DNA from: Bacteroidota bacterium
GTDB lineage: Bacteria > Bacteroidota > Bacteroidia > CAILMK01
Direction: 5' to 3'
DNA: 32,012 nucleotides
NCBI GenBank assembly: GCA_026391915.1
Contig: JAPLCZ010000239.1
Coordinates: forward strand, 1 to 32,012
The translations under genes and the position numbers were made by a program. The notes beneath the pieces are model-generated. The model was not told the origin of the DNA and did no database searches. It saw only the letters and a program-made list of their open reading frames with translations. Shown in pieces: positions 5,710 through 27,194 of the stretch; position 1 is the first letter of the stretch, and each line of letters opens with the position of its first letter.

Positions 5710-7620
5710 ATGAGATTACAAGAAAAGTATAAAATTATAGGGCAATATATAGAAGGGAATTTTATGTTTTTCATTTGTGAGACTATGATTTTACTTCTTC
5801 TGTTATTCTTAATAATTTATATTAGATGGAGAAGGAAGCAATTGATTTCAGCTATTGAAGTAACTAAATATTTTGATAATCACTTAAATGAAAATGGAAA
5901 TAACCCACCATTAAGGAAAACCTATCAAATCAAAAAAGATAAGAAGGGAGTGCAAAATGGAATTAATAACACATCTGAAAAAACAAAAGATATTATAGGG
6001 AGAGGAAGGGACTCAGAAAAAACAAACGTAACGACTAACGACAAAAATGAGAGCAAGAATGATGTGACAATGGATAAACAAGCTAAACAAAAAGTAAATT
6101 CTACATTGTTCCTATCAAATGATGTAAGTGTTAAAATTATTAAGTCCGTTCCAGAATCAGAAAACTCAAAGCCTAAAAAAATTGGATATAAACCCAATAA
6201 TAAATTTCTCCAAAGTGAACAATACTCTTATGCTGCCGTAAAAATGCCATTAGAAGATAGTTTAATTAAATTGTCACGTAAAGGGAGGTCTAATAAAAAA
6301 GGATATACAGAGGATGGATTTTTCAGAACTCTCAAGGAACATTTTAAGGGTAAATTTAGTGTATTCAATGACAGACATATCCCGACAAAGAATGGAAGAG
6401 TTTATGAACCAGATTTTGTACTTTCAAATATAAAAAACAGTAAGAATATCTATATAAATACTGAAATTGATGAGCCATATGAAGGTGGTAAGAAGGCACC
6501 AACTCACTGTATAGGTAAAGACAATATTAGAGATGATTTTTTTACGAAAAGAGGATGGATTGTAATCCGCTTTGCAGAAATCCAAGTTCACCAAGAACCT
6601 GATAATTGTTGTGCTTTAATTGCAAAAGTAATCGCATCTATTGATGAAACATTTAGCTCCGAATTACTTCTTCAATCCAATCCAATGTCAGTTAGACAAT
6701 GGAGCAGTTCACAAGCAAGAAAGTGGGTGGGAATAAAATATAGGGAAGGATATTTAAACATAGCAGACTTTGAAAATAGACCAAATGAAATTGCCAAATA
6801 CATAGTCAAAGAATCAATAGCTGACCAACTAGTAGAGGGAAGTATTTCTGTATTGGATTCCAAAGATAAAAGTGAAATTAAAAAAGCCCCAAATATTGAG
6901 ACAAAAAACCATTCTATAAATAAAGTCGAAAGAGAAGAAGTGTTATCATCTGATGATATAAAACACAGGATTCATGTTAAAGACAAATCCAATACTATTT
7001 CAGCACGACAACTTGTCGATAAGTTCTTCCCGAAATTTGATGTTAATTTATCTGTTGAAATAGCTGCTTACGAAAAAGGAGTTTCTAGGGAAATAATTCT
7101 TAAAGAATGGGATAACGTAGCTGAGAAAGGGATTGATATGCATGAGACAATTCGTAGTTTTTTTGCTGGTAATGATTATGAAATAAATACACCAGAAATC
7201 AGGTATTTTTTGGCGTTTTTAGAAGACCATAATTCTTTAAAGCCATATAAATTCAATTTGAATATTTTTGATAAAGACCTGCTTATTGAAGGAATAATAG
7301 ATATGATATTTGAAAAGGAAGACGGGTCTCTTCATATGTTTGATTGGGAAAGAAGTAATAAAATTGTTACCCCGGGGAGTATTATAAATAACAATGGAGG
7401 TAATGGATTAAAGCGGCTTTCACACTTAAAAGACAATGAATATAATAAGCATTGCTTACAACAAAACATCTATAAACACATTATAGAAAAGTACGGTTTT
7501 AAGATTGCTTCAATGAACTTGTTGATACTTCATCAATCATACAAAACTTATATAGAAGTAAGAATTCCTGATATGGAAAGAGAAGTAGAATACATTTTTG
7601 AAAACAGGTTTAAACTTTAG
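5710..7620 (+). CDS. Membrane-anchored protein with two PD-(D/E)XK nuclease-like domains
   Basis: 636 aa; no family name is recognised. Residues 18-38 form one hydrophobic helix followed by RWRRK, so the bulk should face the cytoplasm. Residues about 60-180 are a Lys/Asn/Glu-rich, probably disordered linker. Domain 1 (about 190-310) resembles DUF559/Vsr-like endonuclease folds: EPDFVL with D235, NTEIDEPYE with E252 and D254, then D271, R274 and GWIVIRFAE (282-290). Domain 2 (about 445-630) resembles RecB/Cas4-type nucleases: GIDMH (474-478), IDMIF with D531, DWERSNK with D545, and QQNIY (584-588). In domain 2 the usual catalytic Lys after D-[YW] is Glu547, so its activity is doubtful. The gene is AT-rich, stands alone in its direction between housekeeping genes and ends at a strong terminator, suggesting an accessory gene. 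A defence or DNA-processing role is inference. ATG 5764 is an alternative start that would leave the helix intact. Confidence 0.75.
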
Positions 7621-7704
7621 CACCTCCACCCTCATTGTTATTATCACCTACATGCTGTTCAGAAAATAAGCTGTTGGTAAAACCACCGCACCGTTCACAA
7701 AATA

Positions 7705-7734
7705 AAAGACCTCCCCAATTGGGGAGGTCTTTTT
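7705..7734. terminator. Perfect bidirectional intrinsic terminator
   Basis: The two 15-base arms (AAAAGACCTCCCCAA and its exact complement) form a perfect palindrome with a GC-rich core. It has A-runs on one side and T-runs on the other, so it can end transcription from both directions. It lies between the convergent dual-nuclease gene (stop 7620) and the lipoprotein gene (stop 7756). Confidence 0.88.
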
Positions 7735-7755
7735 ATTTATTAAGTATGGCTGAAT

Positions 7756-11249: not shown

Positions 11250-12002
11250 ATGAAGGCTTCAATTCTATGTGTTTGTCTTGTTCTAAGCTCTATACTTTAT
11301 GGACAAAGAAAGTTACAAATCGGCTTACACATTAATCCAGTTGTTAATTATCTACAGTTACCCAAATATGATGGTAATGACATTTTTGATTATAACCTTG
11401 TATACTTTGACTACAAGGATTCAAAAATAGGAATTAATACAGGTCTTGAATTTGATAATTCACTTGATAGCAATTTAGGGTTTAAAATAAATCCTTCAGT
11501 GATTTATCAATCAATGGAATTCACCCAATCAAGATTTCCAAATAATCATGAGATTAAAGGGATTATTCATAATGAAATAGGATATCTTAATTTCCAAATT
11601 CCTATTCTCATTTACAAAAAAATGGATATTGGGAACAAAAAATCACAAGTTAAAATTGGGGCAGGATTTAGTCTTAATATGGCTCATTTTAATAATGATA
11701 TAGTTCAATGGGATTTAATTGTTGATACTAATTTGCTTTCAGTGAGTTTGCTTGGCAAAGAGAATAAAGAATTTACCTTTAATTCATCAGGTATAGCGTT
11801 CATAAGTTATAATCAAAAATTAGAAAAGTATGGTGCCTTTGAGGTCGGCATTTCATTTCATCAGTTATTTGGCGGTATGCCTAAATATGATTATCAACTT
11901 CAAGTAAATGAGAAAAAACCGTATTCAATGTTAATATCACCTAGAATATCTTATCTAAGCTATGACATGATATTCTATTTTGGTAAACATCATTCTCACT
12001 AA
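11250..12002 (+). CDS. Outer-membrane beta-barrel protein (PorT-like), unknown function
   Basis: 250 aa. A signal peptide (MKASILCVCLVLSSILYGQ) is followed by alternating-hydrophobicity strands typical of the small outer-membrane barrels found in Bacteroidota: GLHINPVVNYL, GINTGLEF, GFKINPSVIYQ, YLNFQIPILIYK, QVKIGAGFSLNM, AFEVGISFHQLFGG and LISPRISYLSYDMIFYFG. No plug or binding motif is visible. It is more AT-rich than the minus-strand genes around it and stands alone in its direction. TATATTTG (11238-11245) lies only 4 bases before the ATG, which would imply a near-leaderless transcript if it is the true -7 element. Confidence 0.75.
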   Translation: MKASILCVCLVLSSILYGQRKLQIGLHINPVVNYLQLPKYDGNDIFDYNLVYFDYKDSKIGINTGLEFDNSLDSNLGFKINPSVIYQSMEFTQSRFPNNHEIKGIIHNEIGYLNFQIPILIYKKMDIGNKKSQVKIGAGFSLNMAHFNNDIVQWDLIVDTNLLSVSLLGKENKEFTFNSSGIAFISYNQKLEKYGAFEVGISFHQLFGGMPKYDYQLQVNEKKPYSMLISPRISYLSYDMIFYFGKHHSH

Positions 12003-21968: not shown

Positions 21969-24900
21969 CTATTCGCCGTCATCTTTTTCATCTGCTTTTT
22001 TCTTTTCCTCTTCCGCCTTTTTCTTTTCTTCTTTTTCGCGTTTCTTTCTTTCTTGTTTGGTCTCCACTTTAGGCTCTTCTTTTTTGCTGTCGTCTTTTAT
22101 GGTTTCATCTTTTTTACCATCTGTTTCCACAGCATTATCTTTCTTCTCCTCGGTCTTTTTCTCCTCTTCCTTTTTTAATTCTGCCGCCTTCTTTTCCTCT
22201 TCTTTCTTGAGGTCTGCAGCTTTCTTTTCTTCATCCATTAACTTCTTGGCTTCCTCATCTGCTTTCTTCTTTTCTTCTTTTTCGCGTTTCTTTTTCTCTT
22301 TAGCAGTTTCTTTCGGCGCCTCTGTAGTAGTAGAGTCTTTTACAGTTTCTTCTTTCTTTTCTTCTACTTTTTTATCCTCAGTTTTTTTGTCTTCTTCCTT
22401 ATTTAAATCTGCGGCTTTTTTCTCTTCATCTGCTTTTTTCTTGGCTTCTTCTTCCGCCTTTTTCTTTTCTTCTTTTTCGCGTTTCTTTCTCTCTTTATTG
22501 GTTTCCTTTGGCACTTCCGTGGTGGTAGAGTCTTTTACCATTTCCTCCTTTTTTTCTTCAATCTTTTTGGGTTCCTCTTTCTTCTCTTCGGTTTTAATTT
22601 CTTCTTCTTTCTTAGGCTCTACTTTTTTCTTTATAGGATCTCCATTTTCATCGTATTCTTCTTCAGTATCATCACTTTTTACACCACCTAGTTTTTCCTT
22701 TTTAGGGTCATTGGAGAAAAACATATCCAGATCTTTGGCTTTAAATTTCATTACGCCATCCACCGTTTCCTGCTCTAAACTAAAGCTGCCCTTGCTGTTC
22801 TTTTCCAACTTGCCCTGTATCTCTTTTATCTTATCCACGTATGCCATTTCATTACCCAAATAATAGAGTGTTCTGTTAACAAATTTAAAGTAATGATAAT
22901 TTTCATTAAGGGTTTCCAACAGCATCCCAAAAGTGCTTTGGGTTTCGGTTTGTTTTACGGCAATCATCCCATTCAGAGATTTATTGATGGGTGCTTTTTT
23001 AATGGTAGCCAAGCCAATAGGGCCTTCGGAGAAAAACCCTCCTGCGCTATCAGAGAAAACCATGTTTACGGAGCTGAAAACAAACATCCTGTTGGCTGCA
23101 TCTGCAGAGGCAATGTATTTATAAGATGAGAGTTCATTAATGATTTTTTCTCTGTCCTTTTTCTCTTTCATCATCAATACAAAAGCATTGTAGGTAGCAG
23201 GCGTGATACCTGTAATTTCACCCATGGTGTAGGAGGTCATTAGTATGTTATCAGAAATCAATTTTGTGATGTCATCATTCCAAGGAAAGTTGACAATCAT
23301 TGCCACATTAAAGTTGTGCTTATTATCCGTGAGCCTTTGGGTAAAACTTCCTGCAGATTTAATCTCTACCTTCTTCCCAAATTTACCTCCGAATTTATAT
23401 TCACCCTCAGTGTAAACTTCTCCATCTTGTTCTTGTAACTGGAAAGTATTGCCACCAACAAACATGGGTATTTCAGTAGTGGGCGGTATAAGTTTTCTGC
23501 GTTCACCAAGTATAAATAGTTTTTGTTTTTCGTCATAGGTAAATAATCCAGATGTGCTAAAAACTTCCCTATCTGTTGGGTGTATTTTTTTACCAAAAAG
23601 GAGACTATACATCTTCCATTTGCCATCACGGTTATTGAGATATGTGCCGGTAAAAAGCTCTTTATTATCTTCTCCAAACGCCTTAGGGAAATCATACAAC
23701 ACATTTTTAGCATCAATAGTATCTGATGTTTTTACCCATGCGGTACGCAATTGCGGGTAACTATGTTCCGGCATTATGCTGCCATTAAACCAAAGATTTT
23801 TTTCTTCTGACTCAAGTGTAACTGCACCTTTAAAAAGTATTTTTGGCCACACATGGAAGTGTTGGGTATCACGGATAGTAGCTACTGCCTCTGTGGTATT
23901 ATCCTCTGTTGTGTGGATGTCATTAAAAAGTATTTTTATAGAGTCATCATTTTTATCAACATAATTATAAGTACCAAACCCGGTGTATTTATTTTTAGAG
24001 AAAATGTTTACTGTTGCATGATGAATTCTGTGATACCTATTAGTTGCATTTGCTATAATTACGGCATCAACAATGGTTTTAATAACGCCCTCTTTTTGTA
24101 CTGTTATTGACCTATCATTGGTAGCAATTTTAGCATCTGCAATTTCCAATTCTGGTACTTCAAAAGCTTTTAAATTCAGGCTATCCAATTTGTATCTTGC
24201 CTTGGCAGAGGTGAACTGTAAATTCTCTTGGGTTGGATTATCCGATTTAAAATAGGCGTCCTTTTCATTTTGTGAAGCAGTTCGTTCAAAGTTAATTTCC
24301 TTCTCTTTTAAATCATAGGTAAAGCTATTAAGCGTGGTAGAAAATTGCTGTGATGGCAGTTTAACTTTAGTAGTATCGCTATTGGTATTGAACTTAGCAA
24401 AATCCTTTTTCAAATCAAGATTTGCATTAACGCCATTAGTCATCAATGCATATTTTTTTGAGGCATCTGATTTAATAATCAAGTTACCATCTTTGGTGAT
24501 GATGTTATCCGGTTTAAAAGCAAAATTTTGAGATTGCAACTGTATATTTTGATAGTTGGTAATCCCCTTACCCACCAATTCTACAGGGGTTAGCACAAAG
24601 CTCCCTTGGAAAATAACTTTGTCCTTATAAATCTGTATGGGCTCTTTGCGTTTGAACACAAACATGCTATCAGCATATGGCAACCAATGATTATATACAC
24701 TCTTCCCATCCACAGGTGGATATAGTCCGCCTGCAATTTCAGGGATGTTAAAAACATCAGCATTGGTATTCATAGAGTCCGGAAAGAAAACAAAATCCTG
24801 AGAGGTGGTATGGGAAACAAGGTAGTCGGTTTTTCCATTGCCATGCAGTCCTTTATTAGAGAGAAGATATTTCCCAAACCCTTTTCCTTTTCCTCTGTAT

Positions 24901-25022
24901 AGTGCATAGCCTTCTGTGGGGGCTTCTTTAATAAACCCAAGAGAATAATCAGGCTGAATGGTTAAATCATATTTGATATCCGGAAGAATACCCGCGGAAA
25001 CAAAAGTACCCGGAAACTTCAA
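21969..25022 (-). CDS. Second part of a split large exported protein, Lys/Glu-rich tail
   Basis: 1017 codons in exactly the same frame as the gene at 25023-27194, separated from it only by one TGA. The frame reopens with TTG, no ATG occurs until residue 84, and there is no signal peptide, so independent expression as an envelope protein is unlikely. Residues 1 to about 750 are strand-rich with patterns such as KFPGTFVSAGILPDIKYDL, FTYDLKEKEINFERTA and AIVNFPWNDDITKLIS; no known domain is recognised. The last ~260 residues are almost entirely K/E/D/A with REKEEKKKAEEEAKK units and look like extended coiled coil or disordered tail. This is probably the C-terminal part of a 1741-codon gene with a nonsense mutation, a sequence error or stop readthrough. 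Confidence 0.7.
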   Translation of the reverse strand: MKFPGTFVSAGILPDIKYDLTIQPDYSLGFIKEAPTEGYALYRGKGKGFGKYLLSNKGLHGNGKTDYLVSHTTSQDFVFFPDSMNTNADVFNIPEIAGGLYPPVDGKSVYNHWLPYADSMFVFKRKEPIQIYKDKVIFQGSFVLTPVELVGKGITNYQNIQLQSQNFAFKPDNIITKDGNLIIKSDASKKYALMTNGVNANLDLKKDFAKFNTNSDTTKVKLPSQQFSTTLNSFTYDLKEKEINFERTASQNEKDAYFKSDNPTQENLQFTSAKARYKLDSLNLKAFEVPELEIADAKIATNDRSITVQKEGVIKTIVDAVIIANATNRYHRIHHATVNIFSKNKYTGFGTYNYVDKNDDSIKILFNDIHTTEDNTTEAVATIRDTQHFHVWPKILFKGAVTLESEEKNLWFNGSIMPEHSYPQLRTAWVKTSDTIDAKNVLYDFPKAFGEDNKELFTGTYLNNRDGKWKMYSLLFGKKIHPTDREVFSTSGLFTYDEKQKLFILGERRKLIPPTTEIPMFVGGNTFQLQEQDGEVYTEGEYKFGGKFGKKVEIKSAGSFTQRLTDNKHNFNVAMIVNFPWNDDITKLISDNILMTSYTMGEITGITPATYNAFVLMMKEKKDREKIINELSSYKYIASADAANRMFVFSSVNMVFSDSAGGFFSEGPIGLATIKKAPINKSLNGMIAVKQTETQSTFGMLLETLNENYHYFKFVNRTLYYLGNEMAYVDKIKEIQGKLEKNSKGSFSLEQETVDGVMKFKAKDLDMFFSNDPKKEKLGGVKSDDTEEEYDENGDPIKKKVEPKKEEEIKTEEKKEEPKKIEEKKEEMVKDSTTTEVPKETNKERKKREKEEKKKAEEEAKKKADEEKKAADLNKEEDKKTEDKKVEEKKEETVKDSTTTEAPKETAKEKKKREKEEKKKADEEAKKLMDEEKKAADLKKEEEKKAAELKKEEEKKTEEKKDNAVETDGKKDETIKDDSKKEEPKVETKQERKKREKEEKKKAEEEKKKADEKDDGE
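21997..22560. repeat. 195-bp duplicated units in the K/E-rich coding tail
   Basis: Two units offset by 195 bp (about 22170-22365 and 22365-22560, 65 codons) each encode VKDSTTTE, PKET, KKREKEEKKKA and EEKKAADL in the same order. A third, partial unit at about 21997-22062 encodes ERKKREKEEKKKAEEE. Unit boundaries are approximate. Confidence 0.75.
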
Positions 25023-25025
25023 TCA
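25023..25025 (-). other. In-frame TGA interrupting a 1741-codon reading frame
   Basis: The codon order on the minus strand is GCA GAA TGA TTG AAG TTT, with the frame open for 723 codons before and 1017 codons after. Protein character continues smoothly across it (IENLDHFTAE, stop, LKFPGTFVSAGI). Confidence 0.85.
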
Positions 25026-27194
25026 TTCTGCTGTAAAATGGTCAAGATTTTCTATTACAAACGGGTCTATACGAAAGAAAAAACTATCCTTTAAATACAC
25101 CCCGCCATAGATACTTTTTTTATCATAATACACATAAGATTCTTTGGTACACCTAAAAATAGGATACTCTATATATGGCTTTTTGCCTGACTTATTATTG
25201 CCTTTATCAATGTATAAAAAGCCTGTAATTTTTTGGATGGTATTCTGGATGTCATGCATCTCAATCTCATTTCCTTTATCATCAAACTCGGGGAATTTAA
25301 ATTTTAATGAGTCAATATTATCCAGATTAATTTTGAAAGAATCATAATCAAAATACATCCCGTTGCCCCAAAAATTAAACCTGCCACTATGCACCATTCC
25401 ATTAAAAACCATGTCACGATTTTTTAAAAATTTTACCGTTTTATTTAATGGAATAATATAGGTTTGTTGGGAGTCACTAAGCTTAATAAGGCTTACCCCA
25501 AGCACTGTAAGCTCTTTGGTATTCATATCATAAACACCATTAGGCCTGCCAGATAAATTGGAGATAAATTTAATAACATCAAAGTCTTCTCCTTTGTTGG
25601 CAGCCCTTTCATAATGGGCTAATTTATTTTTTTGGGTTACTGTTTTCCCATCAATATCATAAAAAATATAACCCTCCCTACTCAGCAAAATAAGCAGTGC
25701 AAGCATATTATCTGGGGTATTGCCAAAGTAGCCAGCAACTGCATCAATAGTGGCAGTGTTGCTACCGTTTTTATCAAAGAAATTTTTAAGTTTGGTGATA
25801 GGGTTATAGTCCAAAATCCCCTGCAACTGCAACATCTTGTCAATGTTAAAAAAGTTGGAAGACTCAAAAGAAATATCCTTAGGTGTATTGGAGATGGATT
25901 TCAAATTCATTTTGGTGGAGTCCAAATCCCAGATAATATTATCTGGTGAAAACTCCAGCTGATGATAACTGTTAAAGAATGGGCTTGCAAAAACGCCCTC
26001 ATCTTTACGCGCCATGGTTAGCCTCCTGGTCTTTTCATTATAGTTGAAAATACATTGCGGATGATAAATGGAATCTCCATCACCAATGTAAATTGTTATT
26101 GATGCCTTTGAAGAAACCAATTTATCTTTTGCAATCACAAAAGAACGTGCTAGGGCTTTTACAGTTAGTTTACCATTAGAAAAAACCGTTACCATTGCCC
26201 TTGTACTATCCGCACTTTTACCAATAATCTGTGCACCCTCTAAACTAAAGCCCCCATAATAATTTATGTTTTGAAATACGTTGTTCAACTTAAATACATT
26301 TTGGTAAGAGCTAAACCTTGGGTAGCTTGCCTTTTCTCCTTGGAAGGTAGCCGTAACCTTATCAGAAAATCTTCCTAAAACCGGGGTTTTAAAAAGTGAA
26401 GGATAGGTAAGTTCAGCTGAGTCCGAACTATAATCAGAAGTCCGTAAATCAAAGTAATATTTCTTCAACTTAACGGATGCTTTTTCTCTCCCAAAACCAA
26501 CCCTAGCCCAGTATACATTTCCACCAGTACCTCGCCATTTGTTTGTGTTGATGTAATAGATGCCTGATGTTGTATAGATGCTCATGGTATCAGCCCTGCT
26601 ATAGAGTTGCAAATCTGTAGCACTGAAAGTTATGGTAGGTTCTTTTTTAAATTCTAAAAGATATGCGTTGCTGCTCACTCTCCATTTTTTGCCGCCATTG
26701 TCTGCCAATATCTGGTCTTGGAACAAACTAAACATAGACTCGTTAAACCCTCTGAATTCCTTTTTTTGTTTCTCAATAATTTGCCCCAACACCTCGCTAT
26801 AAGCGTTAAAAATATCCGATGAAAGTTTCTTATTTTTAATCATCAAAATATTATTAAAATACCCCTGAAAATCCGGGTAAGGGCGCATTTTAACTTTCAA
26901 CATTTTGTTGCAAATAGCAATTATTTGTTGTTGTTCATCCAAAGAAAATCCACCTGTTTTCCATTTATCTAAAAAATCAAACATGGATTTTTTTGCATCA
27001 TCCACTGCTACTTCTGTAAAAAAGGTTTTTATCTCTTTTACAAACGCAGCGGTATCTGTGCTAAATTCTTTAAGAATCTTCCTCTCCACTTTGGGTTCAT
27101 CATTAGCATTTGTTCTTAGGATAGGTTTGTTTTGTGAGAATCCAGCAAAAAACAAAAAGGACAGAAACGAAATGAGAAGTATTTTCTTAATCAT
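25023..27194 (-). CDS. First part of a split large exported protein, unknown function
   Basis: 723 aa, signal peptide MIKKILLISFLSFLFFAGFSQ. Residues about 40-165 are helical (EIKTFFTEVAVDDAKKSMFDF, EVLGQIIEKQKKEF). Thereafter strand-rich sequence dominates (IYTTSGIYYINTNKWRG, YYFDLRTSDYSSDSAELTYPSLFKTPVLG, GGFSLEGAQIIGKSADS), with a short helical insert around 470-540 (TIDAVAGYFGNTPDNMLALLILLSREGYIFYD). The repeated strand-turn pattern resembles large periplasmic or outer-membrane-associated proteins of Bacteroidota, but no named family is recognised. The frame ends at a TGA after FTAE and continues in the same frame downstream. The signal peptide sits only on this piece, so the intact product would be a roughly 1741-residue exported protein. 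Confidence 0.75.
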   Translation of the reverse strand: MIKKILLISFLSFLFFAGFSQNKPILRTNANDEPKVERKILKEFSTDTAAFVKEIKTFFTEVAVDDAKKSMFDFLDKWKTGGFSLDEQQQIIAICNKMLKVKMRPYPDFQGYFNNILMIKNKKLSSDIFNAYSEVLGQIIEKQKKEFRGFNESMFSLFQDQILADNGGKKWRVSSNAYLLEFKKEPTITFSATDLQLYSRADTMSIYTTSGIYYINTNKWRGTGGNVYWARVGFGREKASVKLKKYYFDLRTSDYSSDSAELTYPSLFKTPVLGRFSDKVTATFQGEKASYPRFSSYQNVFKLNNVFQNINYYGGFSLEGAQIIGKSADSTRAMVTVFSNGKLTVKALARSFVIAKDKLVSSKASITIYIGDGDSIYHPQCIFNYNEKTRRLTMARKDEGVFASPFFNSYHQLEFSPDNIIWDLDSTKMNLKSISNTPKDISFESSNFFNIDKMLQLQGILDYNPITKLKNFFDKNGSNTATIDAVAGYFGNTPDNMLALLILLSREGYIFYDIDGKTVTQKNKLAHYERAANKGEDFDVIKFISNLSGRPNGVYDMNTKELTVLGVSLIKLSDSQQTYIIPLNKTVKFLKNRDMVFNGMVHSGRFNFWGNGMYFDYDSFKINLDNIDSLKFKFPEFDDKGNEIEMHDIQNTIQKITGFLYIDKGNNKSGKKPYIEYPIFRCTKESYVYYDKKSIYGGVYLKDSFFFRIDPFVIENLDHFTAE

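Follow-up and report, generated by a model that had tools for sequence, protein, structure and literature searches.

A candidate membrane-tethered dual-nuclease gene in a Bacteroidota genome, one member of a patchily distributed family

The dual-nuclease gene and its genomic setting

The window (the whole stretch of DNA analysed, 32,012 nucleotides) is the entire contig JAPLCZ010000239.1 of a Bacteroidota bacterium with a 3.3 Mb genome (assembly GCA_026391915.1). The list of open reading frames (ORF) of the window contains a 636-amino-acid frame with an ATG start that stays open for 636 codons (Table 1). The original prediction, made from the sequence alone, described one transmembrane (TM) helix, a charged linker and two different PD-(D/E)XK-type domains in a single chain; the ORF, the hydropathy profile, the AF2 models and the Foldseek matches all agree with this layout. 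Every residue that it named is present as well (D235, E252, D254, R274, H478, D531, D545, Q584 and Y588), and so is Glu547 at the place of a lysine. The TM segment recurs in L061 and L062, the nearest full-length relatives, and the RWRRK stretch that follows it would place the C-terminal part in the cytoplasm by the positive-inside rule. Together, TM segment and positive flank fit an inner-membrane topology with cytoplasmic nuclease domains.

Table 1. Features of the dual-nuclease locus (positions in the window; residues of the 636-aa protein).
Feature	Positions	Strand	Basis
Candidate membrane-tethered dual-nuclease gene	5710..7620	+	ORF; most of the chain is homologous to 73 two-domain proteins
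TM helix, residues 18-38, followed by RWRRK	5761..5823	+	Hydrophobic, Kyte-Doolittle 2.85 over 19 aa
Charged low-complexity linker, residues ~44-149	5839..6156	+	Sequence; poor conservation, variable length among relatives
DUF559/Vsr-like PD-(D/E)XK domain with helical tail (including W331), residues 150-360 (domain 1)	6157..6789	+	Weak Pfam DUF559 match; 3hrl profile match; AF2
Domain 1 putative catalytic D235, E252, D254; also H266, R274	6412-6414, 6463-6465, 6469-6471 (D235, E252, D254)	+	
RecB/MGME1-like exonuclease domain, residues 405-636, predicted inactive (domain 2)	6922..7617	+	phrog_298 matches of relatives; Foldseek MGME1; conservation outlier
Domain 2 kept residues H478, D531, D545	7141-7143, 7300-7302, 7342-7344	+	
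Domain 2 changed residues T475I, E482R, K547E	7153-7155 (E482R), 7348-7350 (K547E)	+	
Hairpin resembling an intrinsic terminator, flanked on each side by T/A runs; the adjoining genes are convergent	7704..7735	.	Read from sequence AAAAGACCTCCCCAATTGGGGAGGTCTTTTT

The genes on either side are encoded on the opposite strand and seem ordinary; the dual-nuclease gene is transcribed alone, in agreement with the predicted isolation. According to Pfam, tyrS (TyrRS) and DUF4468 and OmpA genes lie upstream, and genes for a lipoprotein, a PolB-type exonuclease and an aldehyde dehydrogenase (ALDH) lie downstream on the opposite strand. None of the neighbours is a defence gene. There is also no helicase gene beside it, and we found no homologue of the relatives' partner helicase (see below) elsewhere in the genome. 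The gene is AT-rich, as predicted (GC 0.306; whole window, 0.382), but not uniquely so, since the ORF at 11250-12002 has a GC content of 0.291. Further along the window, two big adjacent minus-strand ORFs (21969-27194; 1017 and 723 aa) have no Pfam match, and a strong AT skew is seen within their region, near 22000-23000.

We found no copy of the dual-nuclease gene in any of the 11 further genomes of its order, and a match of any kind in 12 of 395 genomes of the class. In the six relatives whose tyrS region was examined, a DUF4468 and/or an OmpA gene is kept on one side of tyrS, and none of the genes on the window's other side (dual nuclease, lipoprotein, exonuclease, ALDH) stands beside it. 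Synteny with the relatives at tyrS thus ends at the dual-nuclease gene, which points to an accessory gene at a synteny breakpoint; its absence from the order, its rarity in the class and its low GC content argue in the same direction.

A DUF559/Vsr-like first domain

Domain 1 scored 17.1 bits with the Pfam DUF559 model (PF04480), below the gathering cut-off of 20.6, and its profile matched the PDB entry 3hrl, an endonuclease-like protein, with an E-value of 0.0014. The AF2 model (pLDDT 94.7) places a strand (236-240) beside D235 and a second strand (247-254) that carries E252 and D254. A Foldseek search with this model gave no match below an E-value of 0.001: the best was an R2 retrotransposon protein (0.009), followed by Bax1, Can2 and BamHI, and MunI and MGME1 were also matched. 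As judged from the model, these individually weak matches appear to be largely PD-(D/E)XK (restriction-endonuclease-like) nucleases, and the check for such a fold by structure prediction failed for neither domain of the protein.

D235, E252, D254 and R274 show little or no variation across 81 domain 1 homologues, and the window protein keeps 30 of the 31 near-invariant residues, with one changed. The presence and conservation of the residues picked out by the original prediction is far beyond chance. Proteins with a similar DUF559-like core (H1-H20), annotated as hypothetical, are also common on large plasmids of cyanobacteria.

A second domain of MGME1-like descent with a probably lost active site

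The second domain of the relatives matches the phrog_298 exonuclease profile with E-values of 1e-24 or better, and comparison of domain 2 with viral exonucleases gave matches down to 6e-16. Its AF2 model is closest to MGME1 in Foldseek (5zyu; E-value 1.2e-7, probability 1.00, TM-score about 0.6), followed by AdnAB, EXO5 and Cas4. The call of a RecB/Cas4-like domain therefore holds for the RecB family but not for Cas4 proper: NCBIfam and PADLOC Cas4 matches fell far under their cut-offs, and the fold of MGME1 and phage exonucleases is closer. The domain 2 model has a pLDDT of 91.2, but most sequences in the alignments behind both AF2 models came from intact relatives, and the models are therefore no proof that the altered domain 2 of the window protein folds well. 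One further relative of domain 2 is encoded in a 642-kb uncultured phage genome (LR756502.1, 565363-565956).

Among 76 domain 2 homologues, H478, D531 and D545 never vary, and Q584 hardly does. The residue at position 547 is a lysine in 74 of 75 two-domain relatives; it is isoleucine in the relative L114 and glutamate (codon GAA) in the window protein. This is one of nine changes that the window protein carries among 34 near-invariant domain 2 residues (T475, E482, K547 and six more), the most of any member, and with nine conserved positions altered we rejected a sequencing error as the source of E547. The bias towards domain 2 is also visible in overall identity. Identity between the window protein and its nearest relatives (L060 from Emticicia aquatica, L061 and L062) is 65% for domain 1 and 45-47% for domain 2, whereas other pairs at comparable domain 1 identity average 0.61 in domain 2 (sd 0.07). 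L114 has the same bias, with 7 of 35 positions changed in domain 2 against 0 of 30 in domain 1.

Glu547 aligns with K253 of MGME1, and the K253A point mutant of MGME1 has lost all tested nucleolytic activities (PMC4222359). Given the K547E replacement, the changes at 9 of 34 positions and the essential role of K253 in MGME1, we predict domain 2 of the window protein to be inactive. It is probably a pseudo-nuclease, a RecB/MGME1-like member by descent whose sequence lacks the catalytic D-x-K lysine, and the suggestion that a domain with Glu547 may no longer cut is thus supported for this copy. In two lineages, those of the window protein and of L114, it seems that the second activity has gone while the first has been retained.

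Distribution and composition of the family

Scans of genome contigs and viral contigs with the single protein found no relatives, and alignment-based scans found 317 in the former and 4 in the latter. We kept 80 loci of the 317; 73 of these encode both domains. They are mostly from Bacteroidota, with a patchy distribution (Emticicia, Hymenobacter, Flavobacterium, Algoriphagus, Pedobacter, Prevotella/Xylanibacter, Chlorobiaceae MAGs and others). In the tree the window protein sits on a long terminal branch (0.78) in a clade with L060-L067.

The original prediction knew of no system with this architecture. With at least 73 fused homologues the window protein is not a one-off; still, no Pfam, NCBIfam, PHROGs or PADLOC model describes the two-nuclease fusion. 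A single-sequence search of the PDB with the window protein gave no match, and in the literature on DUF559, helicases and phage defence we found no matching system and no paper on the fusion. A sub-threshold PADLOC fragment of DpdC (E-value 0.006) falls in the linker and is absent from the sub-0.01 hits of three relatives; we rejected it as noise.

The part ahead of the nuclease domains varies among relatives. It can hold a VWA domain (L131), a metallo-beta-lactamase domain (L110), WG repeats (L126) or an SH3 domain (L112), the pattern one would expect if a constant effector were fitted with variable sensors, and L064-L066 have a signal-peptide-like start with the TM segment further in.

Several other arrangements were seen. 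L005 and L125 have the same N-terminal half and DUF559-like domain, with a WYL domain replacing the MGME1-like domain, and this type adjoins a PDC-S68-type RecD-like helicase; L120, L123 and L127 are also without the motifs of the second domain. Each domain exists separately, too. A TM-anchored DUF559-like protein of ~210-240 aa with a single domain is found in 7 of 8 genomes of one family (L057:9055-9702, L037, L039, L040), one copy lying directly after ruvA, and a stand-alone MGME1-like gene (~250 aa) is found in 14 of 15 genomes of another, streamlined family (1.0-1.6 Mb; L053-L056, L019-L032, L134-L135), in a recurring gene context and often directly before a glycosylase-like gene.

Two forms of the family and their gene neighbourhoods

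Neighbour clustering revealed a sole recurrent partner: at 28 loci an SF1 helicase of the UPF1/DNA2 type (~610 aa) is encoded directly downstream in the same direction, usually 0-3 bp away. The absence of a helicase noted by the original prediction is thus true of the window copy but not of the family. Most helicase-linked members have no TM segment and begin with a 60-aa domain common to the phage family phrog_28651; this domain makes up residues 1-60 in most cytosolic members among L071-L094. TM segment and helicase occur together at 6 loci, the TM segment alone at 31, the helicase alone at 21 and neither at 5 (Fisher p 3.7e-7 for exclusion). The tree shows just two helicase changes and six TM changes, and with only two helicase gains or losses we dropped the exclusion as an independent statistic. 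The split follows the tree and therefore describes clades, and is no proof of functional exchange. The family has two main forms: a solitary one, usually membrane-anchored, that includes the window clade, in which no member has the helicase; and a mostly cytosolic one with the SF1 helicase downstream.

Type I restriction genes lie near 6 of the 28 helicase-linked loci. The nuclease-helicase pair stands between hsdS and hsdR at L073, L080, L081 and L092, and hsdM and hsdS flank L071 and L072; L050 is preceded by a type I hsdM-S-R system. A reverse transcriptase is encoded upstream of L074 and L084; at L074 (copy G079) it is UG19 with its RTas1465 partner, and L084 is preceded by this pair too. 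Of 112 genes neighbouring solitary members (raw counts), a minority are restriction-modification (RM), GmrSD, AriA-type ATPase, reverse transcriptase or phage integrase genes. Homologues at a fixed housekeeping locus had been named at the outset as a finding against a defence role: most homologues are not at such a locus, and two small subclades are, one beside pyruvate kinase (L108/L117) and one beside a histidine kinase in Prevotella/Xylanibacter (L136/L137/L139).

Proposed function and alternatives

From the ORF, the TM segment, the predicted domain folds, the homologue set, the helicase linkage and the loss of conserved residues, we propose a nuclease activity, an inner-membrane topology, an anti-phage role and a target as follows. 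The window gene may be an accessory, probably defence, gene for a membrane-tethered nuclease against incoming DNA, a reading to which we give a probability of about one half. The inner-membrane-anchored cytoplasmic protein would cut invading DNA near the membrane with its DUF559/Vsr-like domain, and the tether would limit cutting to DNA entering the cell, sparing the chromosome, as in SNIPE, a membrane-bound anti-phage nuclease with one N-terminal TM segment and a cytoplasmic nuclease, whose TM deletion is toxic (PMC13190303). In the family, the MGME1-like exonuclease would digest whatever ends or single strands the first cut leaves; in the window copy, the decayed domain 2 would probably persist in a structural or DNA-binding role. 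For the other main branch, the operon-linked SF1 helicase would usually replace the tether and present DNA to the same two nucleases.

The defence part of this reading draws on the type I RM and reverse transcriptase neighbours of the relatives, on the exchanged N-terminal modules and on the SNIPE precedent. The patchy distribution adds to its plausibility, but the window gene itself lacks a defence neighbour.

The main rival is a membrane-associated nuclease of DNA repair or uptake, which would trim or cut the cell's own damaged DNA or incoming DNA (in repair, recombination or natural transformation) and not phage DNA specifically. The near-universal single-domain genes suggest DNA maintenance, both the TM-anchored DUF559-like one (7/8 genomes, one copy beside ruvA) and the MGME1-like one (14/15 streamlined genomes, often by a glycosylase-like gene), MGME1 itself is a DNA-maintenance exonuclease (PMC4222359), and some fused subclades occupy the stable loci described above. 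The fused form, however, is patchy and absent from the rest of the order, it is found with RM, reverse transcriptase and integrase genes, and its N-terminal modules are swapped; a housekeeping enzyme losing one catalytic domain while the other is still constrained would also be unexpected. We therefore regard a repair or uptake role as unlikely.

It is less probable still that the protein is an abortive-infection or toxin effector, in which the tether would keep an indiscriminate nuclease inactive until a signal frees it against the cell's own DNA. The exchangeable, sensor-like N-terminal modules of the relatives and the toxicity of TM-less SNIPE (PMC13190303) would suit such an effector, but the helicase is the only recurrent neighbour, and we saw no recurrent antitoxin, cyclase or protease partner. 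Least probable is a degenerate gene whose domain 2 is eroding as function was lost since transfer, as the long terminal branch and the nine changed domain 2 positions might suggest, since the 636 codons hold no stop or frameshift, domain 1 keeps its conserved residues almost completely, and decay is confined to one domain, in L114 alike.

Returning to the tethered anti-DNA nuclease, we suggest tentatively, and at somewhat less than even odds, that the window protein belongs to a Bacteroidota family, so far uncatalogued, for defence against DNA. Its dual-nuclease effector would be used in either of two ways, membrane-tethered with exchangeable sensors or cytosolic with a dedicated SF1 helicase, and the tethered form could lose the second nuclease and reuse it as a non-cutting domain.

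Membrane-tethered nucleases that hit phage DNA at entry have been newly described (SNIPE, 2026; PMC13190303). In such systems position, not sequence, separates self from non-self. If the proposal is true, there would be a second family, unrelated and made of different nucleases, and the strategy would have arisen more than once. As the effector also exists in a helicase-coupled form, the family could serve to test whether tether and helicase are interchangeable in directing a dangerous nuclease, and the window copy, with one domain apparently off, offers a natural experiment on which nuclease matters.

Comparison with known systems

Domain 1 resembles the C-terminal part of the DUF559/Vsr-like endonucleases (PF04480; 3hrl), but has its own EIDEPY signature and helical tail, and its type is usually membrane-anchored in Bacteroidota. 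The domain 2 family shares its fold and H...D...DWK motif with MGME1 and the phage RecB-like exonucleases (phrog_298); here, in contrast, a membrane anchor and another nuclease belong to the same chain, and the window copy is without the lysine and without the HxxIE glutamate.

Like the two-gene nuclease-helicase defence systems Hachiman (HamAB, PMC12278908) and Gabija, 28 relatives have adjacent nuclease and helicase genes; they differ in their helicase, SF1 of the UPF1/DNA2 type, and in their two-domain nuclease, and no helicase accompanies the window copy. The protein resembles SNIPE in its single N-terminal TM segment, its variable N-terminal region, its predicted cytoplasmic DNA-binding and nuclease parts and its solitary gene, as well as in having a minority of homologues without the TM segment and with other N-termini. 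SNIPE, however, combines DUF4041 with GIY-YIG where the window protein has two PD-(D/E)XK-type domains, and no link to a tape-measure protein or ManYZ is known for the dual-nuclease protein. Membership of SNIPE was excluded, as the Pfam scan of the window protein gave neither DUF4041 nor GIY-YIG and the fold of domain 2 is that of MGME1. The best reading, by analogy, is that the protein may act like SNIPE without being a SNIPE homologue: a tethered nuclease and a nuclease-helicase pair are already known kinds of system, and the fusion is a new combination.
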